Source of the DNA: Pseudomonas viciae
GTDB taxonomy: Bacteria > Pseudomonadota > Gammaproteobacteria > Pseudomonadales > Pseudomonadaceae
NCBI RefSeq assembly: GCF_004786035.1
Contig: NZ_CP035088.1
Span: forward strand, 5,158,001-5,222,000
Direction: 5' to 3'
DNA: 64,000 nt
The position numbers and the translations under genes were made by a program. Positions within the stretch are counted from its first letter, which is position 1; each line of letters opens with the position of its first letter. The notes beneath the pieces are model-generated. The model was not told the origin of the DNA. It did not search any database and saw only the letters and a list, made by a program, of their open reading frames with translations. This document shows positions 9,826-61,192 of this stretch, piece by piece.

Positions 9826-9902
9826 TGGTGTCCCAGGGCAGGTTCGAACTGCCAACCTTCCCCTTAGGAGGGGGATGCTCTATCCAATTGAGCTACTGAG
9901 AC
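9826..9902 (-). tRNA. tRNA-Arg (anticodon CCT)
   Basis: A complete cloverleaf on the minus strand. The acceptor GTCTCAG pairs with CTGGGAC, the T-arm is GGCAG-TTCGAAC-CTGCC, and the anticodon loop CTCCTAA gives CCT. Discriminator A and CCA are encoded. No integrated element is seen next to it. Confidence 0.97.
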
Positions 9903-10075
9903 ACGAGTCGACCACGAGAAACGCGGTGCGAAGGACGGCGTGCATGTTAACGGCCAGTCCTGCGTTTGTCATGTCGTCCATGGTTTTTAAGTGTAGCCAA
10001 AGGGTACCGCTGGCCAGACTCACAGGTCGAAGACAGCTGATATTCAACCGCCACTCATCTGCCCTGACTCACCTC

Positions 10076-10234
10076 ACGCTAGTAAATCGGCAAATTGCCA
10101 CTATCCTATACAAAACAAGGACAGCACGCGCCTTTGCCCTCGCGCCGGTTATCCGCCGGACGGTATGGCACATAGACACGATGCAGTGGTCACAAATGCG
10201 GACCTGTTGATTTTTCAAACCAGTCCGCATTTTT
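10076..10234 (+). ncRNA. Candidate small RNA upstream of amrZ (5' end uncertain)
   Basis: The 526 bp between the tRNA-Arg and amrZ contains no convincing ORF, but it ends a transcript: a strong rho-independent terminator lies at 10194-10234 on the plus strand, about 195 nt before amrZ. No protein gene upstream points into it, since the flanking tRNA is on the other strand. A plus-strand RNA of roughly 100-150 nt is therefore inferred. TATCCTATAC near 10102-10111 resembles a -10 region, but no good -35 is visible. GGA motifs occur near 10119, 10158 and 10200. The 5' boundary given is a guess. Confidence 0.4.
10194..10234 (+). terminator. Rho-independent terminator in the amrZ upstream region
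   Basis: AAATGCGGAC (10194-10203) pairs perfectly with GTCCGCATTT (10223-10232), and a T-run follows. The loop contains further partial pairing. The orientation fits plus-strand transcription only. Confidence 0.8.
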
Positions 10235-10285
10235 GATGAAGGGTGCTGGCATAACGCCTTTACCCGGATCAATATTTGTCACAGA

Positions 10286-10297
10286 ATTGGCGCCAAT
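10286..10297. promoter_or_regulatory. Palindrome in the amrZ promoter region
   Basis: ATTGGCGCCAAT is a perfect 12-bp palindrome about 130 bp upstream of amrZ, followed by TGGCAATTTTGAGGC. A second one, GGCAA-A-TTGCC, is at 10089-10099. AmrZ is known to repress its own gene and to bind GGCA/TGCC-type sequences, so these are operator candidates, not proven sites. Confidence 0.4.
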
Positions 10298-10428
10298 GAT
10301 CTGGCAATTTTGAGGCATGATGCGGGCCTCTTAACAATTCAGGTTGAACATTTGGCTACAGGCCTTGTCCTAACGACATCCTGCGGCCAATCCCGAGAAC
10401 CGCTCCCCTGAACTAACCGGTTAAATAT

Positions 10429-10755
10429 ATGCGCCCATTGAAACAGGCAGTTTACTCCAGCCGTACAGCTGACAAGTTCGTGGTACGTCTGCCAGACGGA
10501 ATGCGGGAACGCATTGCCGAGGTGGCTCGCAATCATCATCGCAGCATGAACTCTGAAATCATCGCGCGCCTTGAGCAAAGCCTTATTCAAGAAGGCGCTC
10601 TTGGTGAAGAGCTCAGCATGCGCTTGGACAGCCCTGAGCTGTCCTTGCATGAGCGCGAGCTGCTGCAACGATTCCGACAACTCTCCCATCGCCAGCAAAA
10701 CGCCCTTGTTTCGCTGATTGCCCATGATGCCGAAATGGCCGCAGACGCGTCCTGA
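10429..10755 (+). CDS. amrZ: Ribbon-helix-helix transcription factor AmrZ (AlgZ)
   Basis: An Arc-family DNA-binding protein that controls alginate, motility and cyclic di-GMP genes in pseudomonads. The 108 aa product shows the RHH fold at residues 13-55: the beta strand KFVVRLP followed by helices [17 protein letters not shown] and [12 protein letters not shown]. Its C-terminal part ([23 protein letters not shown]) is the AmrZ tetramerisation region. It starts with ATG at 10429 and is monocistronic, with a terminator 16 nt after the stop. It regulates motility in fluorescent pseudomonads, which relates it to the flagellar cluster upstream, although they are not in one operon. Confidence 0.95.
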
Positions 10756-10771
10756 TCGCAACGAATATCTT

Positions 10772-10799
10772 AAAGCCAGCCTTGTGCTGGCTTTTTTTT
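10772..10799 (+). terminator. Terminator of amrZ
   Basis: AAAGCCAGC - CTTGT - GCTGGCTTT followed by a run of T. A textbook intrinsic terminator directly after amrZ. Confidence 0.92.
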
Positions 10800-10840
10800 G
10801 CCTGGCGTTTGGCCCTGATTTGAATTTTTGAGCATCCATG

Positions 10841-10870
10841 AAAAAGCCCGCCAGATAGGCGGGCTTTCTT
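10841..10870 (-). terminator. Terminator of mgtE
   Basis: AAGCCCGCC and GGCGGGCTT flank a 5-nt loop, with a T-run in the minus-strand direction. It lies immediately after the mgtE stop. Confidence 0.88.
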
Positions 10871-10880
10871 GACGAGTGAT

Positions 10881-12323
10881 TCAGAGCAGGAAAATCGTCG
10901 CCAACCCCAGGAAAATAAAGAACCCACCGCTGTCAGTCACAGCGGTGATCATTACGCTGGCACCCATGGCAGGGTCACGCCCCATGCGGGCCAGGGTCAT
11001 GGGAATCAATACCCCCATCAGCGCCGCCAACAACAAGTTGAGGGTCATCGCGGCGGTCATGACCACCCCCAGCGACCAGCTGCCGTAGAGCAGATAAGCC
11101 ACCACACCGATCACCCCACCCCAAATAACGCCATTGATCAGGGACACGGCCAGCTCCTTGCGCATCAATCGCGAGGTATTGCCGGTACTGACCTGGTCCA
11201 GCGCCATCGCGCGGACGATCATGGTGATGGTCTGGTTGCCGGAGTTGCCACCGATGCCGGCAACGATGGGCATCAACGCCGCGAGCGCCACCAGCTTCTC
11301 GATGGAGCCCTCGAACAACCCGATCACCCGAGAGGCGACAAAAGCCGTAATCAGATTGATTGCCAGCCAGGCCCAACGGTTACGCAGGGATTTCCAGACC
11401 GAAGCGAAGATGTCTTCTTCTTCGCGCAGACCGGCCATGTTGAGGACTTCGCTTTCGCTTTCCTCACGAATCAAGTCGACCATTTCATCGATGGTCAGAC
11501 GGCCGATCAGCTTGCCGTTCTTGTCGACCACCGGCGCAGAAATCAAGTCATAACGCTCGAACGCCTGGGCCGCGTCATACGCGTCTTCGTCCGGGTGGAA
11601 GCTCACCGGGTCGCTGGCCATCACCTCGGCCACTTGCTTTTCCGGATCATTGACGAGCAAACGCTTGATGGGCAGCACGCCTTTGAGCACGCCGTCGTAA
11701 TCGACCACAAACAGCTTGTCGGTATGCCCCGGCAGCTCCTTGAGACGACGCAAGTAACGCAAGACCACTTCAAGACTGACATCCTCACGGATGGTCACCA
11801 TCTCGAAGTCCATCAGCGCACCGACCTGCTCCTCGTCGTAGGACAATGCCGAGCGCACACGCTCGCGCTGCTGGCCGTCGAGGGTTTCCATCAGTTCGTG
11901 GACAACGTCCCGTGGCAGCTCGGGCGCAAGGTCTGCGAGTTCGTCGGCGTCCATTTCCTTGGCCGCCGCCAACAACTCGTGATCATCCATGTCGGCGATC
12001 AGGGTTTCACGAACCGAGTCGGACACTTCGAGCAGGATGTCACCGTCGCGATCAGCCTTGACCAACTGCCAGACCGTCAGACGCTCTTCCAGTGGCAGGG
12101 CTTCAAGAATGTAGGCGACGTCGGCGGAGTGCAGGTCATCGAGCTTGCGTTGCAGCTCAACGAGATTCTGCCGGTGGACCAGGTTCTCGACCCGGTCATG
12201 ATGCGGGCCTTCCTGGCGATGCGTCAGGTCTTCCACGACCCGCTGGCGCTGCAGCAGCTCAACGACTTGAGCGAGACGATCCTGAAGGCTTTCCTGCGTT
12301 TTTTTGACTTCTACTTGGGACAT
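10881..12323 (-). CDS. mgtE: Magnesium transporter MgtE
   Basis: Inner-membrane Mg2+ channel of 480 aa. The architecture is complete: cytosolic N domain (about 20-130), two CBS domains (about 135-260), a connecting helix and five transmembrane helices (about 285-480). The segment ALMPIVAGIGGNSGNQTITM, with its GNSGNQT core, is the conserved pore region. The Mg2+-sensing N and CBS domains gate the pore in known homologues. The start is ATG at 12323 (MSQVEVKKTQ), with GGAG 8 nt upstream; an extension to 12353 is possible but lacks support. It is monocistronic, between amrZ and a small secreted protein gene. Confidence 0.95.
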   Translation of the reverse strand: MSQVEVKKTQESLQDRLAQVVELLQRQRVVEDLTHRQEGPHHDRVENLVHRQNLVELQRKLDDLHSADVAYILEALPLEERLTVWQLVKADRDGDILLEVSDSVRETLIADMDDHELLAAAKEMDADELADLAPELPRDVVHELMETLDGQQRERVRSALSYDEEQVGALMDFEMVTIREDVSLEVVLRYLRRLKELPGHTDKLFVVDYDGVLKGVLPIKRLLVNDPEKQVAEVMASDPVSFHPDEDAYDAAQAFERYDLISAPVVDKNGKLIGRLTIDEMVDLIREESESEVLNMAGLREEEDIFASVWKSLRNRWAWLAINLITAFVASRVIGLFEGSIEKLVALAALMPIVAGIGGNSGNQTITMIVRAMALDQVSTGNTSRLMRKELAVSLINGVIWGGVIGVVAYLLYGSWSLGVVMTAAMTLNLLLAALMGVLIPMTLARMGRDPAMGASVMITAVTDSGGFFIFLGLATIFLL

Positions 12324-12644
12324 AGGCGAACTCCACTCCCAGCAGTGGAGCACGCCGGAAGGATCAATCAGTTAATTCATGATTGGCAAAACTAGATATT
12401 GAGTAACTACTGGGTAAGTCCATGGAAATATTCCAAAGCCCCGGCGGGGCTGACGGGCGCAATCATACACCGCTTGACGCTTTAAAACGCTAAAAAATCA
12501 TGGCAAGAACAAGCGCTTGCGAGACAAACCTGAACGCAGGCTGAACCTCTGGCTTTGGACGACTTATCCTGAAAAGAAAACACACGCCCCAGGAGAGATG
12601 CAGCGGCTAGCCTTCTGTTTTTTATCGTCAAGGAGGACGCTCGC
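12324..12644. other. Intergenic region between mgtE and the BamE-like gene
   Basis: A divergent regulatory region without a plausible ORF. It holds the short hairpin AGCCCC-GGC-GGGGCT at 12437-12451 without a U-tract and an AT-rich tract around 12480-12500. I could not recognise a Mg2+ riboswitch. Confidence 0.5.
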
Positions 12645-13148
12645 ATGCCCGCCAATCATTACCTTTTTTTGCTCGCCACCCTGCCCTGCCTGCCTGTATG
12701 GGCTGCCGGGCAGACCGTGCATCGCTGCGAAAGTAGTGTGGGGCACGTCACATTCACGACGTTGAGCTGCGGCCCGGGAGAAGACCTGTCGCTGCAGCAG
12801 ATTCATCCGTACAGCCCGGGCACCAGCGGACCGATAACCGAGTCGTTACTGCCCGAAGCAGAGCCCCGACAAACATCCAGTAATAGAACCTCGCGCAAGG
12901 AGCTGACCGTTGTCGGCCAGTTCGAAGACCGCTGCGCAAATCTGATCGACGCCAGGCAACGCCGCGACGCGATCATGAACCAGCGCATCATCGCCGGCAT
13001 GAGCCAGCAGGACGTAGAGAGCGCCCTGGGCAAACCCCACTCAATCAAAATAAGGAATTCGAGCACGCGGTATACCTACAAAGCGAAAAAAGGTCGCAGC
13101 GCGGAGATCGTGTTCGACGAGAAAGGATGCGTGAAAGGCAAATCGTAG
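12645..13148 (+). CDS. Secreted protein with DUF4124-like start and BamE/OmlA-like C-terminus
   Basis: A 167 aa protein of unknown role with an N-terminal signal peptide (cleavage near PVWAAG, about residue 21). The next part, VHRCESSVGHVTFTTLSCGPGEDL, resembles the DUF4124 module with two cysteines. The C-terminal 60 residues (IIAGMSQQDVESALGKPHSI...YTYKAKKGRSAEIVFDEKGCV, seen in pieces) resemble the BamE/SmpA fold, found in small envelope proteins. There is no lipobox. The ATG at 12645 has a perfect AAGGAGG 9 nt upstream. It is monocistronic with its own terminator. Function is inferred only as envelope-located. Confidence 0.8.
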   Translation: MPANHYLFLLATLPCLPVWAAGQTVHRCESSVGHVTFTTLSCGPGEDLSLQQIHPYSPGTSGPITESLLPEAEPRQTSSNRTSRKELTVVGQFEDRCANLIDARQRRDAIMNQRIIAGMSQQDVESALGKPHSIKIRNSSTRYTYKAKKGRSAEIVFDEKGCVKGKS

Positions 13149-13153
13149 ACAGC

Positions 13154-13182
13154 AAAAAGCCCGCGTTAAACGCGGGCTTTTT
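13154..13182 (+). terminator. Terminator after the BamE-like gene
   Basis: AAAAAGCCCGCG - TTAAA - CGCGGGCTTTTT. It may also serve as a terminator in the minus direction for the tRNA genes that follow. Confidence 0.9.
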
Positions 13183-13188
13183 GGTGTT

Positions 13189-13265
13189 TGGTGCACTCGA
13201 CAGGATTCGAACCTGTGACCGCTCGGTTCGTAGCCGAGTACTCTATCCAGCTGAGCTACGAGTGC
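13189..13265 (-). tRNA. tRNA-Arg (anticodon ACG), copy 1
   Basis: Acceptor GCACTCG/CGAGTGC, T-loop TTCGAAT, and anticodon loop CTACGAA giving ACG. CCA is encoded. It is identical to the second copy 72 bp away. Confidence 0.97.
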
Positions 13266-13337
13266 AGATTGTGGTTTTATACCAGATCACAACTGGTTGA
13301 AGCCAAGTAATTTGCATTGCTGCAAACAACTCTTAAA

Positions 13338-13414
13338 TGGTGCACTCGACAGGATTCGAACCTGTGACCGCTCGGTTCGTAGCCGAGTACTCTATCCAGC
13401 TGAGCTACGAGTGC
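13338..13414 (-). tRNA. tRNA-Arg (anticodon ACG), copy 2
   Basis: The same 77-nt sequence as the first tRNA-Arg(ACG), again with encoded CCA. The tandem copies follow tRNA-Ser(GCT) on the minus strand and are probably one transcript. Confidence 0.97.
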
Positions 13415-13522
13415 ATTTGTTGCCGCGCATTATAGGTCGTCGAATCTTTTTGTAAAGCGCTTTTTTCCAGTAATTTCAACAACTTACGGATGAAGCCAGA
13501 TTGCGTCGCACTAAATAAATAA

Positions 13523-13613
13523 TGGCGGAGAACGGGGGATTCGAACCCCCGACACCCTTTTGAGGTGTACTCCCTTAGCAGGGGAGCGCCTTCGGCCACT
13601 CGGCCAGCTCTCC
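13523..13613 (-). tRNA. tRNA-Ser (anticodon GCT)
   Basis: A 91-nt class II tRNA. Acceptor GGAGAGC/GTTCTCC, anticodon loop CTGCTAA giving GCT, a long variable arm (TACACCTC...GGGTGT) and encoded CCA. It is the first tRNA downstream of rsmA. Confidence 0.97.
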
Positions 13614-52361: not shown

Positions 52362-53561
52362 ATGTCAGATTCCCAGCGCCCCCTGGCGGTCACGCTGCAA
52401 GTCGTTTCCATCGTCCTGTTCACGTTCATTGGTTACCTGAATATCGGTATTCCCCTGGCCGTGCTGCCTGGCTATGTCCATGGCGAGTTGGGTTTCGGCG
52501 CGGTGATCGCCGGGCTGGTGATCAGCGTTCAGTACCTGGCCACCTTGCTCAGCCGTCCTTATGCGAGCCGGATCATTGACAATCTGGGCAGCAAACGCGC
52601 GGTCATGTTCGGCCTCGCCGGCTGCGGGCTGAGTGGTGTGTTCATGCTGGTGTCTGCCTGGACGCCACACCTGCCCATACTCAGCCTGATCAGCCTGTTG
52701 ATCGGGCGCCTGGTGCTGGGCAGCGCGGAAAGCCTGGTGGGCTCCGGTTCGATTGGTTGGGGCATCGGCCGGGTCGGCGCGGCCAATACCGCCAAGGTGA
52801 TTTCCTGGAACGGGATCGCCAGTTATGGCGCGCTGGCGATTGGTGCGCCGTTGGGGGTCTGGCTGGTCAATCACCTGGGGCTGTGGAGCATGGGCGTCAG
52901 CATTATCTTGCTGGGTTTGTTGGGGTTGGCACTGGCCTGGCGCAAGACCGCTGCGCCCATCGTCGCTGGCGAGCGCCTGCCGTTCATGCACGTGCTGGGG
53001 CGCGTCTTGCCGCACGGCTGTGGCCTGGCCCTGGGCTCCATCGGGTTTGGCACCATCGCTACGTTCATCACCCTGTATTACGCAACACAGCATTGGGACA
53101 ACGCGGTGCTGTGCCTGAGTCTGTTCGGCGCCAGCTTCATCGGCGCGCGTTTGCTGTTCGGCAACCTGATCAACCGCCTGGGCGGCTTCCGCGTAGCGAT
53201 CGTCTGCCTCTCGGTGGAAACCTTCGGCCTGTTGCTGCTGTGGCTCGCACCGGATGCCCATTGGGCCCTGGCGGGTGCGGCGTTGAGCGGTTTCGGCTTT
53301 TCCCTGGTGTTCCCGGCGCTCGGCGTGGAAGCGGTCAACCTGGTACCGGCCTCCAGCCGTGGGGCGGCGGTGGGTGCTTACTCGCTGTTCATCGACTTGT
53401 CGCTGGGGATCACCGGCCCACTGGCTGGTGCAGTTGCGGCAGGCTTTGGCTTTGCTTCGATCTTTTTGTTCGCCGCACTGGCAGCCCTGGCCGGGTTGTC
53501 GCTGAGTGTCTACCTGTACCGGCAGGCACCGGGGTCTCGCCAAGGGCGGGAGAAAAACTAG
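52362..53561 (+). CDS. MFS transporter, YhhS/YfcJ-like
   Basis: A 399 aa inner-membrane permease with about twelve hydrophobic helices. The loop 2-3 motif [16 protein letters not shown] is near residue 68, and its second-half counterpart [14 protein letters not shown] is near 268. The sequence resembles the YhhS group of arabinose/glyphosate-type exporters, but the substrate is not determinable. The start is ATG at 52362, 15 nt after an in-frame GTG. Its stop overlaps the convergent arfB by 4 nt. Confidence 0.85.
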
Positions 53562-53971
53562 AAGTCCACCTTACCGCGACCGGCCTTGATCGAGCCGCGC
53601 TTGGTCTTGGATTCCAGGCGACGTTTTTTCGAGCCCAGGGTCGGTTTGGTCGGGCGGCGCTTCTTTTCGACCTTGGTGGCGCTGAGGATCAGTTCGCTCA
53701 GGCGCTCCAGGGCATCGGCCCGGTTCTGTTCCTGCGTGCGATATTGCTGGGCCTTGATGATCAGCACGCCGTCGCTGGTAATGCGACTGTCGCGCAAGGC
53801 CAGCAAGCGCTCCTTGTAGAACTCGGGCAAGGACGAGGCCGGAATGTCGAAGCGCAAGTGCACGGCGCTGGACACCTTATTGACGTTCTGCCCCCCGGCG
53901 CCTTGGGCGCGGATGGCCGTCAACTCGATCTCGGCGTCCGGGATGTGCACAGTGTTGGAAATCGCCAGCAT
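53558..53971 (-). CDS. arfB: Ribosome rescue hydrolase ArfB
   Basis: Releases stalled ribosomes by hydrolysing peptidyl-tRNA when no stop codon is present. The 137 aa protein has the release-factor GGQ motif ([23 protein letters not shown] at about 26-28). Its basic tail ([34 protein letters not shown]) inserts into the mRNA channel. It is convergent with the MFS gene with a 4-nt overlap. Confidence 0.94.
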
Positions 53972-54031
53972 GGAAAACGTCCGGGTTCAGGCCCCACAGG
54001 ATACCCCGAATCCCCCAGCCAACGATCAACC

Positions 54032-54123
54032 TTGTGGGAGCGAGCTTGCTCGCGATTGCAGCGTGTCAGTCACCATTGATGCTGCTGACCCAACGCCATC
54101 GCGAGCAAGCTCGCTCCCACAGG
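54032..54123. repeat. REP pair (inverted)
   Basis: TTGTGGGAGCGAGCTTGCTCGCGATTGC and inverted GCCATCGCGAGCAAGCTCGCTCCCACAGG, close copies of the pair at 26751. Confidence 0.93.
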
Positions 54124-54132
54124 GTTTCGTGC

Positions 54133-55551
54133 TTACTTGGCAGCCGCTGCCACGGCCATTTCATGCCGGGCACTGCGCTTGTTCTTGATCACGTAGCACA
54201 CCCACATGAACACCACCCACACCGGAATCGCATAGACCGAGATCTGGATGCCGGGGATCAACAACATCACGCCCAGAATGAACACCACGAACGCCAGGCA
54301 GACGTAGTTGCCGTACGGGTACCACAGCGCCTTGAACAGCGGCGTCTGGCGGGTCTGGTTCATGTGCTGGCGGAACTTGAAGTGCGAGTAGCTGATCATC
54401 GCCCAGTTGATCACCAGGGTCGCGACCACCAGGGACATCAGCAACTCCAGCGCATGCTGCGGGATCAGGTAGTTCAGCAACACCGCCACCAGCGTGACCG
54501 CAGCCGAGGCGAGGATCGAACGCACCGGCACGCCACGCTTGTCAATCTTCGCCAAAGCCTTGGGCGCATCGCCCTGCTCGGCCATGCCCAGCAACATGCG
54601 GCTGTTGCAGTAAGTGCCGCTGTTGTACACCGACAGCGCAGCGGTCAACACCACGAAGTTGAGGATGTGCGCCGCCGTGTTGCTGCCCAGCATCGAGAAC
54701 ACCTGCACGAACGGGCTGCCGCTGTAGGCATCGCCGGAGGCGTTGAGGGTGGTCAGCAGGCTGTCCCAAGGGGTCAGGGACAACAGCACCACCAGGGCAC
54801 CGATGTAGAAAATCAGGATCCGGTAAATCACCTGGTTGATAGCCTTGGGGATCACGGTTTTCGGTTTGTCCGCCTCAGCCGCGGTGAAGCCAAGCATCTC
54901 CAGGCCACCGAAGGAGAACATGATGATCGCCATGGCCATCACCAGCCCGCTCACGCCGTTGGGGAAGAATCCACCGTGGGCCCACAGGTTGGTCACCGAC
55001 GCTTGTGGGCCGCCGTGACCGCTGACCAGCAAGTAGCTGCCCAGGGCAATCATGCCGACAATCGCCACGACCTTGATGATCGCGAACCAGAATTCGGCCT
55101 CGCCGAAGACTTTGACGTTGGCCAGGTTGATCGCGTTGATCAGCACAAAAAACGCGGCAGCCGAGGCCCAGGTTGGAATGTCCGGCGCCCAGTAGTGGAT
55201 GTACTTGCCCACCGCCGTCAGCTCGGACATGCCCACCAGGATGTAGAGAATCCAGCAGTTCCAGCCCGACAGGAACCCGGCGAAACCGCCCCAGTATTTG
55301 TGGGCAAAGTGACTGAAGGAACCGGCCACCGGCTCTTCGACGATCATTTCGCCCAACTGGCGCATGATCATGAAGGCGATGAAACCGCAAATAGCGTAGC
55401 CGAGGATCATCGACGGGCCAGCTGACTTCAGCACCCCCGCCGAACCAAGGAACAGGCCGGTGCCGATCGCGCCGCCGAGGGCGATCAGTTGAATGTGGCG
55501 ATTTTTCAGGCCGCGTTTCAGCTCGCCTGAATGCGAGTTTTGTCCACTCAT
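54133..55551 (-). CDS. APC-family amino acid permease (AroP-like)
   Basis: A 472 aa inner-membrane symporter with about twelve helices. The start, LKRGLKNRHIQLIALGGAIGTGLFLGSA, holds the first conserved helix. FGGLEMLGFTAAEADKPKTVIPKAINQV-type sequence (about 220-250) is typical of the AroP/PheP/AnsP group. The likely substrates are aromatic or other neutral amino acids. The start is ATG at 55551; a 6-residue extension to 55569 is less likely. It is monocistronic, with the largest gene-free region of the window upstream. Confidence 0.88.
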   Translation of the reverse strand: MSGQNSHSGELKRGLKNRHIQLIALGGAIGTGLFLGSAGVLKSAGPSMILGYAICGFIAFMIMRQLGEMIVEEPVAGSFSHFAHKYWGGFAGFLSGWNCWILYILVGMSELTAVGKYIHYWAPDIPTWASAAAFFVLINAINLANVKVFGEAEFWFAIIKVVAIVGMIALGSYLLVSGHGGPQASVTNLWAHGGFFPNGVSGLVMAMAIIMFSFGGLEMLGFTAAEADKPKTVIPKAINQVIYRILIFYIGALVVLLSLTPWDSLLTTLNASGDAYSGSPFVQVFSMLGSNTAAHILNFVVLTAALSVYNSGTYCNSRMLLGMAEQGDAPKALAKIDKRGVPVRSILASAAVTLVAVLLNYLIPQHALELLMSLVVATLVINWAMISYSHFKFRQHMNQTRQTPLFKALWYPYGNYVCLAFVVFILGVMLLIPGIQISVYAIPVWVVFMWVCYVIKNKRSARHEMAVAAAAK

Positions 55552-56237
55552 GAAAAGGGTCTCACGCAAGGTTTGATGATGTTCGTTAGACGTTGCCGCT
55601 CAAATCGGATTTCAAGCAGCGCCGATCAAACCCCAGCGCAGGCACCAGGAATTCAGCGTTTTAACAACGGTCATGCGTCACCTGTTTGTTTTTATCTGTG
55701 ACGAAATCGAACCCGACACGCTTGTGACGTGGCGGAGTGAACAAGGCGGATAACCTTGAAAGTGCGTGGGTACGCGAAGGGTCACAGTAAAACGCGGCGC
55801 ATTGTACACCGCCGACCCCCTGCTGCCAGACACCACCAGATCAGCGTGTCATTTGCCGGGATTGCACGTGGCCGCCTCGAAGGTCTCGGGCGACTGCAAA
55901 AATGCGTCCAGGCCCTTGCGAGCCCTCGATGGGTGTGGCGCGAAAAACGCCACGACGGGAGAAATGGAATCGAGCTACGGCGTTCATTGCGCCTCCTTCT
56001 TGTTATGCACCTGCACGACAGGCATGGGACGCATCTCACCCTTCCCGCAGACTTGAAACAAGCGGGTCAGAGCCCTGGAAAACCCACCAGCACAGGCCCT
56101 GCGGAAGTTTTTTCTTACAGCCTTTGAAAACACCGTTCCCGGCCATCCCCACGGGCGCCAATCGTCAGTATTTCTTTACAACCTGTAACGCATCATTTCC
56201 ACGTAGGAATTTCCGTAACCCGACTGCAAATTGACGG
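55552..56237. other. Long gene-free region upstream of the peptide locus
   Basis: Apart from the palindrome downstream, I find no gene here. Short frames exist but have no ribosome-binding sites or consistent codon bias. A GTGGCG-CGAAAAA-CGCCAC hairpin lies at 55935-55953. The stretch holds the aroP-like promoter on the minus strand. The total gene-free span up to 56485 is about 930 bp, with a very AT-rich part at 56240-56360, unlike the surroundings. Confidence 0.5.
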
Positions 56238-56251
56238 TAGGTAGCTACCTA
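56238..56251. promoter_or_regulatory. 14-bp perfect palindrome upstream of the peptide gene
   Basis: TAGGTAGCTACCTA directly follows TTGACG (56231-56236), a -35-like sequence, and is followed by an A-rich tract. It has the form of a repressor operator and lies 235 bp upstream of the 45-residue peptide gene. Confidence 0.5.
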
Positions 56252-56485
56252 ATAAAAAAACTCTTCAGCCGGCTGTTTTTGAATGAGTAATTTCTTCGCC
56301 GAAAATGGAATAAAAAATTCAAAAGAAAAAAATAAAATTATTTTTTGCATTCCAAAAAACCCTGGACTAGGTTTCAGCGACTTGCCCACGCATCGTGCCG
56401 GCAAGTTTTGCGGTGGCGCTTGCGGTCAGTTTTCACTCAGCCCATCGCTCCGCACTTTCCGTAAAAGTCATCTAGGAGATTCACT

Positions 56486-56623
56486 ATGCAAGCACTGGAC
56501 AAAGACTTGGAAACCGAACTGCAACTGGACGAATGGTTTGAAGCACCGACCCATGAGGCCGCCGTTGAAATGATGCAAGCCGACGCCGTCGTTCCGTTCG
56601 GCACGGCGATGTGGCCGCTCTAA
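56486..56623 (+). CDS. Small acidic peptide gene (45 aa), precursor-like
   Basis: The product MQALDKDLETELQLDEWFEA (first 20) continues with PTHEAAVEMMQADAVV and ends PFGTAMWPL. The first 30 residues are acidic and helical, and the last ten are hydrophobic with Pro, Phe, Trp and Pro-Leu. This resembles a leader plus core layout of a ribosomally made peptide, but I do not recognise a family. The ATG has AGGAG 8 nt upstream, an excellent site. The next gene (M29-like) starts 94 nt after the stop, on the same strand, and there is no visible terminator between them. Confidence 0.75.
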   Translation: MQALDKDLETELQLDEWFEAPTHEAAVEMMQADAVVPFGTAMWPL

Positions 56624-56717
56624 GCACTACCCGGCGGTGCTGATCCGGCCGGTCAGCTCCGCCACTGTCGCGGATGTGTCAGGGAAGCCAACTACATTTG
56701 TCAGGGGAAGAAAAAGC

Positions 56718-57683
56718 ATGGACACACAACGAGCCATCTCACATTTCCTTTACTACCTCGAACACCATCCCGCCCTGGCCGGCATCCAGCCCGCCAAGGT
56801 GTTGCTCGGCCATACCGCCGACTACGAAGCACTGACCGGTGCCATCGCCGAACAGGCCGGCAGTGGCTCGCCCTTCCGGTTCAGCGCCATGCGCCTGGAC
56901 CTTGAACCCACCGAGCGCCTGTCCAAAGCCATTGCCGACAGCGATCTGTATATTTTCTTCTACGACTCCTCCACCCTGCCCAACCCGCGCCCCGAAGGCC
57001 CGGACTTTGTCCGCGCGCTGCAAGGCGTGATGGCCGACAACTGGAAGAAATCGCTACTGTTCAAGGACTACGGCGATTATTTCTACGACACCTTCAGCGT
57101 CATTCCCCAGCGCATCGCCGGGCTCAACAGCCACCTGATCCGGCGCATGTCCCAGGCGACAACCTTGAGCTTCCAGGATGACCTGGGGTCGTATTTCGAC
57201 ACGCCCCTGCACAGCGTCAAAAAATGGACCGACATCAACGGCCTCGGCAACTATGACTTGGCCCCCGGCGAAATCGCCACCCACAGCGACACCATCAATG
57301 GCCGGGTGAGTTTCCTCGGCACATTCCTGAGCACCATCCCGTTTGCGCGCAAATACGGCGTGCTGCAATCGCCGCTGGAGCTGTGGATTGAAGACTCCAC
57401 CATCCAGAAAATCGCCACCGACGTGCCAGGCCTGGAGCACGACTTCAACAAGTACCTGGACGCCAACCCATCCAACCGCCGCATCGAGGAACTGGGGATC
57501 GGCACCAACGAAGGGGTCAAGAGCCTGTACGCCCGCAATGCCGGTTTCGAGGAGCGCCATTGCGGCCTGCACCTGGGGCTCGGTGGCGGGGCCAAGGGTA
57601 GCCATCATCTGGATCTGATTTTTGAGCGGGGGATGTTGGCGCTCGATAATGAGCCGATGTTTGATGGGCGGTTTGTGCTTTAG
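56718..57683 (+). CDS. M29 aminopeptidase-like protein of unknown role
   Basis: A 321 aa soluble protein. The C-terminal half matches the pattern of M29 metallo-aminopeptidases (AmpS/AmpT): PGEIATHSDTINGRVSFLG at about 183-201, IEELGIGTNEGV at 256-267, CGLHLGLGGG at 282-291 and GSHHLDLIF at 294-302. Candidate metal ligands are E185, E258, E278 or E279, H285, H297 and D299. The N-terminal half is diverged, and the protein is about 80 residues shorter than usual M29 enzymes (about 400 aa). ATG at 56718 with AGGGGAAG about 10 nt upstream. Its only same-strand neighbour is the 45-residue peptide gene, which suggests a processing enzyme for that peptide; this is inference. Confidence 0.75.
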   Translation: MDTQRAISHFLYYLEHHPALAGIQPAKVLLGHTADYEALTGAIAEQAGSGSPFRFSAMRLDLEPTERLSKAIADSDLYIFFYDSSTLPNPRPEGPDFVRALQGVMADNWKKSLLFKDYGDYFYDTFSVIPQRIAGLNSHLIRRMSQATTLSFQDDLGSYFDTPLHSVKKWTDINGLGNYDLAPGEIATHSDTINGRVSFLGTFLSTIPFARKYGVLQSPLELWIEDSTIQKIATDVPGLEHDFNKYLDANPSNRRIEELGIGTNEGVKSLYARNAGFEERHCGLHLGLGGGAKGSHHLDLIFERGMLALDNEPMFDGRFVL

Positions 57684-57708
57684 GTTGGGATTTCTGTAAG
57701 GCTGATGC

Positions 57709-57810
57709 CGCCATCGCGAGCAAGCTCGCTCCCACAGTTGAGCTTCAGCGAATGGAAGATCTGCGACCGACACCGTCCCAGTGTAGGAGCGAGCTTGCTC
57801 GCGATGGCGG
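57709..57810. repeat. REP pair (inverted)
   Basis: GCCATCGCGAGCAAGCTCGCTCCCACAG and, 45 nt on, GTAGGAGCGAGCTTGCTCGCGATGG. The inverse order to the pairs at 26751 and 54032. It separates the peptide locus from rluB. Confidence 0.93.
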
Positions 57811-57844
57811 ACTATCTGTACCGCATCACTAAACCAAGCTAAAA

Positions 57845-57876
57845 AAAAACGCCAACCACAAGGGGTTGGCGTTTTT
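57845..57876. terminator. Terminator after rluB
   Basis: AAAAACGCCAACC-ACAAG-GGGTTGGCGTTTTTT, with A and T runs on either side. In the minus direction it ends rluB; it also works for the M29-like gene in the plus direction. Confidence 0.92.
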
Positions 57877-57903
57877 TCTTGCAGCTAGAAACTCACAGCT
57901 GCC

Positions 57904-59139
57904 TCACTCCGGCTTGCGACGCCCAAACCCCGGACGCTGCCCGGAACCTGCCGGTGCCCCACGGCGCTTGCCCGATGGCGTGTCGCGGTCGACCAGGACG
58001 ATGCCCGGGCGCTTTTTCGGTGCGGGCTTGGCCGGGCGCTTGGTGTCGGCCGGGCGATCAGCCACTGGCGTGCCACGGCCTGCAGGAGCACCGCGACCTT
58101 CACTGCGTTCAGTGCGGCCATTGGCCGGGCGTGGCGTGCGCGGGCCGCGCTCGCCATCCTGGCGTGGTGCTGGCTTGCGGGCCGGGCGCTCGCCTTCGAT
58201 CTGTGGCTCGCGCGAAGGACGTGGGCCGGTCGGCGCACCGTCAGCAGCCGGACGCAGGGTACGCACGCGCTCGGTCTTGCCCATCGGACGCGAGGATTTA
58301 CGCTGCATCCGCTCCAGTTTGTCCTTGCTCTTGGCGGTCATCTGCGGCATCGCCACCGGCTTGAGGCCTACTTCGGCCGCCAGGATGTCGACTTCATACT
58401 GGCTCATTTCGCGCCAGCGGCCCATCGGCAGGTCGGAGTTGAGGAACACCGGGCCGAAACGCACGCGCTTCAGGCGGCTGACCACCAGCCCCTGGGATTC
58501 CCACAGGCGACGCACTTCACGGTTACGGCCTTCCATCACCACGCAGTGGTACCAATGGTTGAAGCCTTCACCGCCGGGCGCCTGCTTGATGTCGGTGAAA
58601 CGCGCCGGGCCGTCTTCCAGCACGACGCCAGCCTTCAGGCGCTCGATCATTTCGTCATCGACTTCACCACGTACGCGCACGGCGTATTCGCGGTCCATCT
58701 CGTAGGACGGGTGCATCAAACGGTTGGCCAGCTCACCGTCGGTGGTGAACATCAGCAGACCGGTGGTGTTGATGTCCAGGCGACCGATGTTGATCCAGCG
58801 GCCTTCTTTCGGACGTGGCATTTTATCGAACACGGTCGGACGGCCTTCCGGGTCGTCACGGGTGCAGATCTCGCCGTCGGGTTTGTTGTACATGATCACG
58901 CGGCGCACCGTTTCGGCGGCCTCTTCGCGCTTGATCACCTTGCCATCGATGGTGATGGCGTCGTGCATGTCGACACGCAGGCCCAAGGTGGCATCTTTGC
59001 CGTTGACCTTGATCCGGCCCTGGGTGATCCAGGCTTCCACGTCGCGGCGCGAGCCTACGCCGATACGGGCGAGGACTTTTTGCAGTTTCTCGCCTGCTGG
59101 GCCGATTTCCTGGCTGTCGTTCTGGTCTAGGTCTTTCAT
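57904..59139 (-). CDS. rluB: 23S rRNA pseudouridine(2605) synthase RluB
   Basis: Modifies U2605 of 23S rRNA. The 411 aa protein begins with an S4 RNA-binding domain (EKLQKVLARIGVGSRRDVEAW, about 15-60), then the RsuA-type catalytic domain with GRLDINTTGLLMFTTDG (catalytic Asp about residue 123). The C-terminal 110 residues are a low-complexity tail rich in R, K, P, G and A, common in Pseudomonas RluB and probably RNA-binding. The start is ATG at 59139, behind GGGAGG; a longer frame to 59256 is unsupported. First gene of a same-strand run with scpB further upstream. Confidence 0.95.
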   Translation of the reverse strand: MKDLDQNDSQEIGPAGEKLQKVLARIGVGSRRDVEAWITQGRIKVNGKDATLGLRVDMHDAITIDGKVIKREEAAETVRRVIMYNKPDGEICTRDDPEGRPTVFDKMPRPKEGRWINIGRLDINTTGLLMFTTDGELANRLMHPSYEMDREYAVRVRGEVDDEMIERLKAGVVLEDGPARFTDIKQAPGGEGFNHWYHCVVMEGRNREVRRLWESQGLVVSRLKRVRFGPVFLNSDLPMGRWREMSQYEVDILAAEVGLKPVAMPQMTAKSKDKLERMQRKSSRPMGKTERVRTLRPAADGAPTGPRPSREPQIEGERPARKPAPRQDGERGPRTPRPANGRTERSEGRGAPAGRGTPVADRPADTKRPAKPAPKKRPGIVLVDRDTPSGKRRGAPAGSGQRPGFGRRKPE

Positions 59140-59320
59140 TCTGGGCACCTCCCGGTGTGGTCGGGTCAGGCCAGGCCTGACACTTTGAAAACGGGTCTTC
59201 GACGAAGGGATCGCCAAAGGGTCGCGAATCATACGCCTGTTGTGGCGTTTGCGCATCAGAGACTAGTTGATCAACCCACGCTCAGCGGTTTTTCCGCCGA
59301 CCGGTGATGCACTGTATTCA

Positions 59321-59349
59321 TGTGGGAGCGAGCTTGCTCGCGATAGCGG
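59321..59349. repeat. Single REP element
   Basis: TGTGGGAGCGAGCTTGCTCGCGATAGCGG, one unpaired copy in the gap between scpB and rluB. Confidence 0.9.
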
Positions 59350-59393
59350 TGCTCCGGTCGCGGAGCCACAGAGGTGTGTTCCAAAAAACGAGA

Positions 59394-60353
59394 TCAATCG
59401 TCGAACTGACGCCGTTCGTTTTCAATCGCTTCAGCCAAGGCCCGGGCTTCGGCTTCTTCATCGCTCAGCTCAGGCTCGGGTTCACGCGGTTCGAGGGCGG
59501 CGACGGCGGCCAGGAGTTTTTCCCGAGCCTCGGCAACGCCAAGAATGTCTTCTTCAGGCTCGGGTTCAGGCTCGGTCTGAAGCTCAACTTCACCGTCGGG
59601 CGGCGAGAGTTCATCCGGCTCGCCTTCAGGACCGGGGCCTTCACGCAGCAGGTCGTCGAAATCGGTCTTTAGGCCCTCCTCCATGGTGTCCAGCTCCAAC
59701 AACAACGTGTGGAAACTGGTCTCCTCCTTGGGCTCCTCCGGCTCGGCGCTGGCGTCGGCCAGTTCCTGCAGGCCCTGGGGCACCGGGGCGTCGTCGAAGT
59801 CCAGCATCGGCTCGGGTTCAAGCTCCCGCAGTTCAGCCAGGGGCGGCAGGTCGTCCAGATTCTTCAAGTTGAAGTGATCGAGAAAAGCCTTGGTGGTGGC
59901 GAACATCGCCGGCTTGCCCGGCACATCGCGATAGCCGACGACCCGGATCCACTCACGCTCCAGCAACGTCTTGACGATATGGCTGTTGACCGCCACGCCC
60001 CGTACATCCTCGATCTCGCCCCGGGTGATCGGTTGGCGATAAGCGATCAACGCCATGGTTTCGAGCATGGCGCGGGAATAGCGTTGCGGCCGTTCCTCCC
60101 ACAGACGCCCGACCCAGGGCGCGAACTTCTCGCGAATCTGCAGGCGATAACCGGAAGCCACTTCCTTGAGCTCGAAAGCCCGCCCCTCACAGGATTTACC
60201 CAGCAGTGTCAGGGCTTTCTTGAACACGGCCGGCTCAGGCCGCTCGCCTTCTTCGAAGAGTTCGAACAGCCGCTCCATCGATTGCGGCTTTCCCGAGGCC
60301 AACAGGAAAGCTTCAAGCAAGGGGGCCAGCTCGCGGGGTTCAGTCAGATTCAT
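59394..60353 (-). CDS. scpB: Segregation and condensation protein ScpB
   Basis: Subunit of the SMC-ScpA-ScpB chromosome condensation complex. The 319 aa product has two winged-helix domains (about 1-175), with RYSRAMLETMALIAYRQPITRGEIEDVRGV near residue 95 as the family signature. It carries a long acidic extension (about 180-319, rich in E and P) not found in shorter ScpB. It starts 11 nt after scpA. Confidence 0.94.
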   Translation of the reverse strand: MNLTEPRELAPLLEAFLLASGKPQSMERLFELFEEGERPEPAVFKKALTLLGKSCEGRAFELKEVASGYRLQIREKFAPWVGRLWEERPQRYSRAMLETMALIAYRQPITRGEIEDVRGVAVNSHIVKTLLEREWIRVVGYRDVPGKPAMFATTKAFLDHFNLKNLDDLPPLAELRELEPEPMLDFDDAPVPQGLQELADASAEPEEPKEETSFHTLLLELDTMEEGLKTDFDDLLREGPGPEGEPDELSPPDGEVELQTEPEPEPEEDILGVAEAREKLLAAVAALEPREPEPELSDEEAEARALAEAIENERRQFDD

Positions 60354-60364
60354 TGATTTGCTCG

Positions 60365-61192
60365 TTATTCGGCTCGTGCCCGCACGTGGATCGCTGCGAA
60401 CGGCTCATTCTGCACCAGCTCGACCAAGGATTCCTTGACCAATTCCAGGACCGCCATAAACGTCACCACCACACCCAGCCGCCCTTCCTCGGCGGTGAAC
60501 AGCTCGACGAACGGCACAAAGCCGCCGCCCTTGAGCCGCTCCAGCACATCGCTCATGCGTTCGCGGGTGGACAGCGCTTCGCGGCTGACCTGGTGACTTT
60601 CAAACATATCGCCGCGGCGCAGGACCTCGGCCATGGACATCAGCAACTCTTCCAGGCTGACATCCGGCAGCAACTTGCGCGCCCGCGCTTCGGGGGCATC
60701 GAGCTTGGGCACCACCACATCGCGCCCGACCCGGTTCAAGCCATCGAGGCCTTCGGCCGCGACCTTGAAGCGCTCGTATTCCTGCAAGCGGCGGATCAGC
60801 TCGGCCCGCGGGTCGTCTTCTTCCGCTTCGACCTCGGCCGAGCGCGGCAGCAGCATCCGTGACTTGATCTCGGCGAGCATGGCCGCCATCACCAGGTATT
60901 CAGCCGCCAGCTCCAGGCGCACCGACTGCATCAGCTCCACATAGCCCATGTACTGGCGGGTGATTTCCGCCACGGGGATGTCGAGGATGTTGATGTTCTG
61001 TTTGCGGATCAGGTACAGCAGCAGATCGAGCGGGCCCTCGAAGGCTTCGAGAAACACTTCCAGCGCGTCCGGCGGAATGTACAAGTCCAGGGGCATTTCC
61101 ATGACCGCCTGGCCATAAACCATGGCGAACGGCAGCTCCTGCTGGGCGCCGGCCTGGCTGTCGGCGCTTTCCACTGTTTCCACAGCCGACAT
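60365..61192 (-). CDS. scpA: Segregation and condensation protein ScpA
   Basis: The kleisin that bridges SMC heads. The 275 aa protein has the N-terminal kleisin signature FEGPLDLLLYLIRKQNINILDIPVAEITRQY (about residues 53-84) and a C-terminal winged helix (about 200-270). The frame starts at 61192, directly after the stop of the YciO-like gene (no gap). An internal ATG (MEMPLDLYI) is an alternative start, which would remove about 30 poorly conserved residues. Confidence 0.94.
   Translation of the reverse strand: MSAVETVESADSQAGAQQELPFAMVYGQAVMEMPLDLYIPPDALEVFLEAFEGPLDLLLYLIRKQNINILDIPVAEITRQYMGYVELMQSVRLELAAEYLVMAAMLAEIKSRMLLPRSAEVEAEEDDPRAELIRRLQEYERFKVAAEGLDGLNRVGRDVVVPKLDAPEARARKLLPDVSLEELLMSMAEVLRRGDMFESHQVSREALSTRERMSDVLERLKGGGFVPFVELFTAEEGRLGVVVTFMAVLELVKESLVELVQNEPFAAIHVRARAE

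Follow-up and report, generated by a model that had tools for sequence, protein, structure and literature searches.

The 64,000-nucleotide stretch of the Pseudomonas viciae genome considered here (NCBI RefSeq assembly GCF_004786035.1, contig NZ_CP035088.1, positions 5,158,001 to 5,222,000 of the forward strand; hereafter the window) carries two adjacent genes on its plus strand, one encoding a 45-residue acidic peptide and the other a 321-residue protein resembling the metallo-aminopeptidases of family M29. These genes occur together far above chance, and with moderate confidence we regard them as a minimal unit of the kind that makes ribosomally synthesized and post-translationally modified peptides (RiPPs), in which the metalloenzyme cleaves or modifies the tryptophan-containing core of its partner peptide. 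The layout described for the pair in the earlier note on this DNA, that is two open reading frames (ORFs) separated by 94 nucleotides (nt) on the plus strand, with a good ribosome-binding site, was reproduced in full (Table 1).

The pairing was analyzed in a sample of 199 Pseudomonas genomes, their genus name being inferred from named records. A full-length enzyme, 69–100% identical, is encoded in 72 of them, and at every one of these 72 loci a small ORF ending with FGTAMWP plus one residue lies 58–94 nt upstream. A separate search with a profile of the peptide retrieved the identical 72 genomes (E < 1e-27); its four other matches (E 0.03–0.09) were not counted. Neither the peptide nor the full-length enzyme occurred alone in any genome of the sample. 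Genome G034 retains at the usual site just the last 29 codons of the enzyme gene as a remnant (locus L033, 4486–4572), having lost the rest of it along with the peptide gene; loci L031–L033 were excluded from the 72-locus counts. The pair was also present at all 80 loci kept out of 177 relatives, which bear the name Pseudomonas and overlap the 199-genome set. Its site in this genus is constant, with the permease gene found at 72 of 72 loci and rluB at 70, the remaining two loci ending before rluB.

The same arrangement was found outside Pseudomonas. A set of 65 genomes represents the genus to which G864 belongs, which was assigned to Burkholderia by 84–89% DNA identity of locus L198 to three named records; among them the enzyme was matched in 51 genomes at 55 places and the peptide in 50 genomes. 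All 54 clear peptide matches (E < 1e-20) stand 55–86 nt ahead of the enzyme, as measured from match to match, while only one enzyme match lacks a peptide, and it is fragmentary, lying on a contig of 3.6 kb from a genome that is 82% complete. Two weak peptide matches in this set (E 0.007–0.009), inside frames of about 3300 amino acids (aa), were not counted. The earlier expectation that a small ORF would precede homologs of the enzyme was thereby borne out in both genera (72/72 loci and 54/55 places, respectively). Three named Burkholderia replicons from a plasmid collection encode a 46–47%-identical enzyme with a 40-aa peptide 58 nt ahead of it, and in genome G518, belonging to another family, a 38-aa peptide is encoded 95 nt before an enzyme of 53% identity. 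When the peptide profile was run on 360 genomes sampled across the class, it gave clear matches in G000 and G518, as well as three weak ones at E 0.008–0.04 that were not counted. No clear peptide match (E < 1e-20) without the enzyme was obtained in the 199, 65 and 360 genomes. A second type of the enzyme, retaining the metal-ligand motifs as judged by eye, occurs at five Burkholderia-genus places (L224–L228), each time with its own diverged peptide (second-type peptide MNENQEKQDLPLIEWMQEDQHEDWVEMMKDSAVIPFATALWA; endings SAVIPFATALWA); four of these five genomes hold the first type as well. The genomic site, permease–rluB in Pseudomonas, differs in Burkholderia and in G518, and over about 15 kb the only block common to B. 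stagnalis and the other three Burkholderia-genus loci measures 1.2–1.3 kb and holds both genes.

The peptides are 38–45 residues long, and their conservation was assessed in the representative alignments A3 (8 rows) and A7 (9 rows). Leu14, Trp17, His23, Met29, Met30, Ala34, Val35, Phe38, Thr40, Ala41 and Trp43 are invariant among nine representatives, in which residues 1–13 and the final residue vary; L, F, M, V, P or A may stand before the stop codon, the peptide of the window ending with MWPL. Three representatives have a net charge of −9. In 11 codon comparisons with the window, the proportion of nonsynonymous differences (pN) in the small ORF was 0–0.12 versus 0.11–0.67 for synonymous ones (pS), and in all 11 the pN of the peptide gene was lower than that of the enzyme gene. 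The peptide gene is under purifying selection, which answers the question of selection raised by the earlier note. A chance ORF is ruled out by its presence at 72 of 72 loci, by this selection and by the retrieval of the same 72 genomes with the peptide profile.

Neither the peptide nor the enzyme matched Pfam or NCBIfam at E ≤ 1, or PHROGs or PADLOC at E ≤ 0.1; no phage match was obtained, and no relative of the enzyme appeared in a scan of viral contigs. A phage or defense gene was rejected on the basis of the phage, PHROGs and PADLOC results. The enzyme is not a plain member of family M29 (PF02073) either, remaining below the Pfam cut-off throughout: only one of 13 members matched Peptidase_M29 (E 0.4), the best score was 9.9 bits at a cut-off of 27 bits, and the enzyme of the window (P0001) gave no match. 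The best folds for its predicted structure were those of NicX, AmpT, PepS/AmpS and CgnB/CgnE. Six ligands of the M29/CgnB type, E185, E258, E279, H285, H297 and D299, are invariant in alignments A1 (15 sequences) and A5 (13 sequences), and the metal ligands of CgnB are E161, E252, E274, H280, H291 and D293, as given in the crocagin study (PMC10070186), from which all statements on crocagin biosynthesis cited below are taken. The M29 likeness claimed earlier thus holds at the level of predicted fold and metal ligands, and not at that of family matches. Compared to the M29 aminopeptidases AmpT, AmpS and PepS, which are of about 400 aa, the protein is shorter (321 aa), unrecognized by the Pfam model and accompanied by a dedicated peptide gene. 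Profile similarity to CgnB was weak, 6zsv being the sole match at E 0.13 in one search and the second at E 0.3 in another.

Within this protein family, we found studies only of CgnB and CgnE (PDB 6zsv, 6zsu). They share with the present enzyme an M29-derived fold outside the Pfam families, a shortened N-terminal part, two-metal ligands that are intact in single-copy members, and a small peptide gene nearby. Single-copy CgnB-like genes with intact metal sites were reported from Actinobacteria, Cyanobacteria and Beta-, Gamma- and Deltaproteobacteria, and RiPPER proposed precursor peptides for them (PMC10070186); some of the present pairs may already stand in the supplementary list of homologs and predicted peptides of that paper. 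A crocagin rule is included in antiSMASH 7, according to its description (PMC10320115). On the other hand, identity on the structural alignments is 10–15%, neither a metal-dead second copy nor an adjacent CgnC dioxygenase or CgnD hydrolase was seen here (the enzyme gave one match in G000), and the lysine/arginine-rich crocagin precursor has a basic leader and a core ending Tyr-Trp, whereas the present peptide is acidic with a core ending x-W-P-x. By analogy, the pair would act like a CgnB-type peptide-processing unit, yet it is no crocagin cluster. A literature search on M29-type RiPP enzymes, covering titles and openings of abstracts, returned nothing on this peptide or pair, the crocagin study alone being relevant. 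The earlier remark that the pair was not recognized as a described class has to be corrected: in CgnB/CgnE the enzyme has a structural relative already described together with its partner peptide (PMC10070186).

Three distant CgnB-like proteins (P0003, P0004 and that of locus L201) also follow small Trp-containing ORFs, which are unrelated and 60–84 aa long, an internal Met in one of them giving 55 aa. Locus L031 (6350–9710, minus strand) encodes a distant CgnB-like protein of 373 aa with Cys-Cys near its end and a 64-aa Trp-containing ORF ahead; its neighbors, labeled by eye, are cupin-like and aldolase-like ORFs, so that it is possibly another peptide cluster.

The intergenic region contains a hairpin, GGCGGTGCTGATCCGGCCGGTCAGCTCCGCC in the window. 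Of the 72 intergenic regions of Pseudomonas, 69 contain a stem with ≥10 pairs, versus 122 of 1440 shuffled sequences and 15 of 360 coding-sequence windows. For the Burkholderia genus, where 41 of the 55 places were fetched (one being the fragment), all 40 regions examined had it, versus 71 of 800 shuffles. The total folding energy was a weaker signal (median z −1.95, below −2 in 34 of 72), and the sequences of the arms differ from clade to clade. Seven T follow the hairpin of G518, which is listed by the terminator scan, although the scan is expected to give 0.8 hits there by chance; the second Burkholderia type has a T run in or after the stem. The hairpin of the window has no T run, is absent from the list of the terminator scan and is perhaps a partial terminator or an RNA-processing element. 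Since Rfam gave no match, a known RNA element was rejected; a literature search on hairpins behind precursor genes returned nothing usable.

In the mechanism that we favor, the first gene would yield an acidic peptide of 38–45 residues in excess over the enzyme, because the hairpin would let no more than a fraction of the transcripts continue into the second gene. Recognition would be the role of the N-terminal end, which is variable, and of the helical middle (LxxWxxxxxHxxxVxMM), while the strongly kept C-terminal AV[VI]PF[GA]TA[ML]W[PA] would be the part acted on; the M29-fold protein with its complete two-metal site would bind the peptide and cleave or rearrange the Trp-containing core. The neighborhood of a dedicated peptide gene and a candidate modifying enzyme is the layout of RiPPs. 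Given how little the core varies from genus to genus, a single fixed small molecule or peptide (a signal, cofactor or metal ligand) is the probable product, and no diversifying antibiotic. A conserved precursor peptide gives rise to one product in the pyrroloquinoline quinone, mycofactocin and 3-thiaglutamate pathways too, but several dedicated enzymes are involved in these analogs, whereas no third gene was seen with the present pair. We would put forward more tentatively, as a possibility somewhat short of even, that this is the smallest pathway of the kind, in which one M29-fold metalloenzyme alone turns the near-invariant AVVPFGTAxWP core into a fixed product common to Pseudomonas, Burkholderia and one or more other families, some Burkholderia having a second pair that co-diverged. 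The earlier proposal that the enzyme trims or modifies the peptide is the best inference, but in an AlphaFold model of the fused proteins the peptide was not positioned on the enzyme.

Several results weigh against such a mechanism. In the fused model the peptide blocks remained disordered, with predicted local distance difference test (pLDDT) values of 22–41 and no docking, and hence gave no structural support for peptide binding; the enzyme and the peptide are both acidic (net charge −12 and −9, respectively), so that there is no overall charge complementarity. Since in 10 of the 11 comparisons the peptide gene had a lower pS, too, than its enzyme neighbor, part of the conservation may sit at the RNA level. 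For the enzyme of G837 (46% identical to P0005), the contig of which ends inside the enzyme gene, no peptide was found upstream or genome-wide, and none was found for a broken enzyme copy in G225. A third clade of CgnB-like proteins (L086, L087, L097, L199 and L200; about 355–390 aa, motif MCGxHLSLGAKH) is without a clear peptide gene. A third gene common to the sites was not seen in ORF lists inspected by eye or by blastn, which leaves export and leader removal unexplained. Finally, CgnB showed no aminopeptidase activity and worked only together with a dioxygenase (PMC10070186).

In a crocagin-like division of labor, the M29-fold protein might only bind and present the peptide, with an oxygenase or some different enzyme from another part of the genome carrying out the chemistry. 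CgnB and CgnE, to which its predicted fold corresponds, bind the crocagin precursor and require the Fe/2-oxoglutarate dioxygenase CgnC (PMC10070186). We consider this explanation unlikely, though the first to be kept in mind among the alternatives, because the two genes appear in B. stagnalis as a self-contained block and no such gene was seen by eye beside the pair in Pseudomonas or Burkholderia, the rest of the genome not having been searched. The order of the genes, a small acidic one first and the enzyme with its intact metal site second, and the rarity of the enzyme without a peptide would also suit a dedicated inhibitor, antitoxin-like partner or subunit, with the hydrophobic end sitting in the metal site as a pseudo-substrate and controlling a peptidase that acts on a different target; this seems quite unlikely, as PADLOC gave no match and the absence of clear enzyme-less peptides from the three genome sets is unusual for a tolerated antitoxin.

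If the peptide itself were functionless and translation of the small ORF controlled the hairpin, and hence the enzyme gene, in cis, one would expect what is observed in part: the small ORF directly ahead of the hairpin and the enzyme, Trp near the peptide end, an amino-acid permease adjoining in Pseudomonas and lowered synonymous change. Such a leader or arrest peptide, however, fits worse because some 31 residues stay conserved despite synonymous change, and the residue before the stop is variable; there are no codon runs, the permease was not seen at the non-Pseudomonas sites, and we hold this explanation to be very unlikely. Least of all do we expect the peptide Trp to be the target of a NicX-like Fe(II) oxygenase, despite the fold. 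NicX has a mononuclear Fe site of His265, Ser302, His318 and Asp320, as described (PMC7910607), and in a weak alignment that does not reach Ser302 its His318/Asp320 correspond to our His297/Asp299, but the iron ligand His265 is replaced with Glu258, and Glu279/His285 complete a two-metal site of the M29 type.

The catalytic role of CgnB is so far a proposal, made for a pathway that needs several proteins (PMC10070186). If a two-gene RiPP-like unit is indeed at hand, a self-contained relative of this size would make CgnB-type chemistry testable with two components. Within Pseudomonas its peptide gene changes less than the enzyme gene, and the unit is carried by more than a third of the Pseudomonas genomes (72/199) and most of those of the Burkholderia genus (50/65); such a conserved, widely carried peptide gene suggests that common bacteria of soils and plants share a conserved metabolite or signal not described so far.

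Table 1. Features of the peptide–enzyme locus (positions in the window).
Feature	Position	Strand	Basis
Proposed promoter: TTGCAT, 17 nt, TAGGTT	56345..56373 (56345–56350 and 56368–56373)	+	Recurrent blocks, inference
45-aa peptide gene (proposed precursor)	56486..56623	+	ATG start, AGGAGA upstream
Conserved peptide part, residues 14–44	56525..56617	+	Alignments A3 (8 rows), A7 (9 rows)
Hydrophobic C-terminal core AVVPFGTAMWP	56585–56617	+	Alignments A3, A7
Intergenic hairpin	56633..56663	+	Folding; conserved stem in both genera
321-aa M29-fold, CgnB-like metalloprotein gene	56718..57683	+	ORF, metal ligands, predicted fold
Metal ligand codon Glu185 (CgnB Glu161)	57270..57272	+	Invariant in A1, A5
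Metal ligand codon Glu258 (CgnB Glu252; NicX His265)	57489..57491	+	Alignments
Metal ligand codons Glu279 (57552–57554), His285 (57570–57572)	57552..57572	+	Alignments
Metal ligand codons His297 (57606–57608), Asp299 (57612–57614)	57606..57614	+	Alignments

The isolated position of the pair between a permease gene and rluB, noted earlier, agrees with the Pfam results: to the left lies a divergent amino-acid permease gene (AA_permease, E 2.4e-127), and to the right rluB, the product of which was recognized as an S4/pseudouridine-synthase protein. The stretch without any supportable gene ahead of the peptide gene measures 916 bp. The neighbors within 53000–61000 encode a major facilitator superfamily protein, an RF-1-domain protein, the amino-acid permease, RluB, ScpB and ScpA; three of them were tested with Pfam and the others were labeled by eye, and no CgnC-type dioxygenase was seen among them by these means. 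Blocks similar to TTTTGCA and to CTAGGTT/CTAGTTT recur across an alignment of 23 upstream regions selected from the 72 Pseudomonas ones and suggest the promoter given in Table 1, which is absent from the list of a consensus promoter scan. The segment 56240–56350, leading up to and into these promoter-like blocks, is very A+T-rich. Directly 3′ of the enzyme gene (57704–57815), and again upstream of rluB (about 59320–59349), there are repeats GCGAGCAAGCTCGCTCCCACA and their inverse, which we take to be of the repetitive extragenic palindromic (REP) kind. Farther away, three tRNA-Arg genes and one tRNA-Ser gene lie on the minus strand at 9826–13613.
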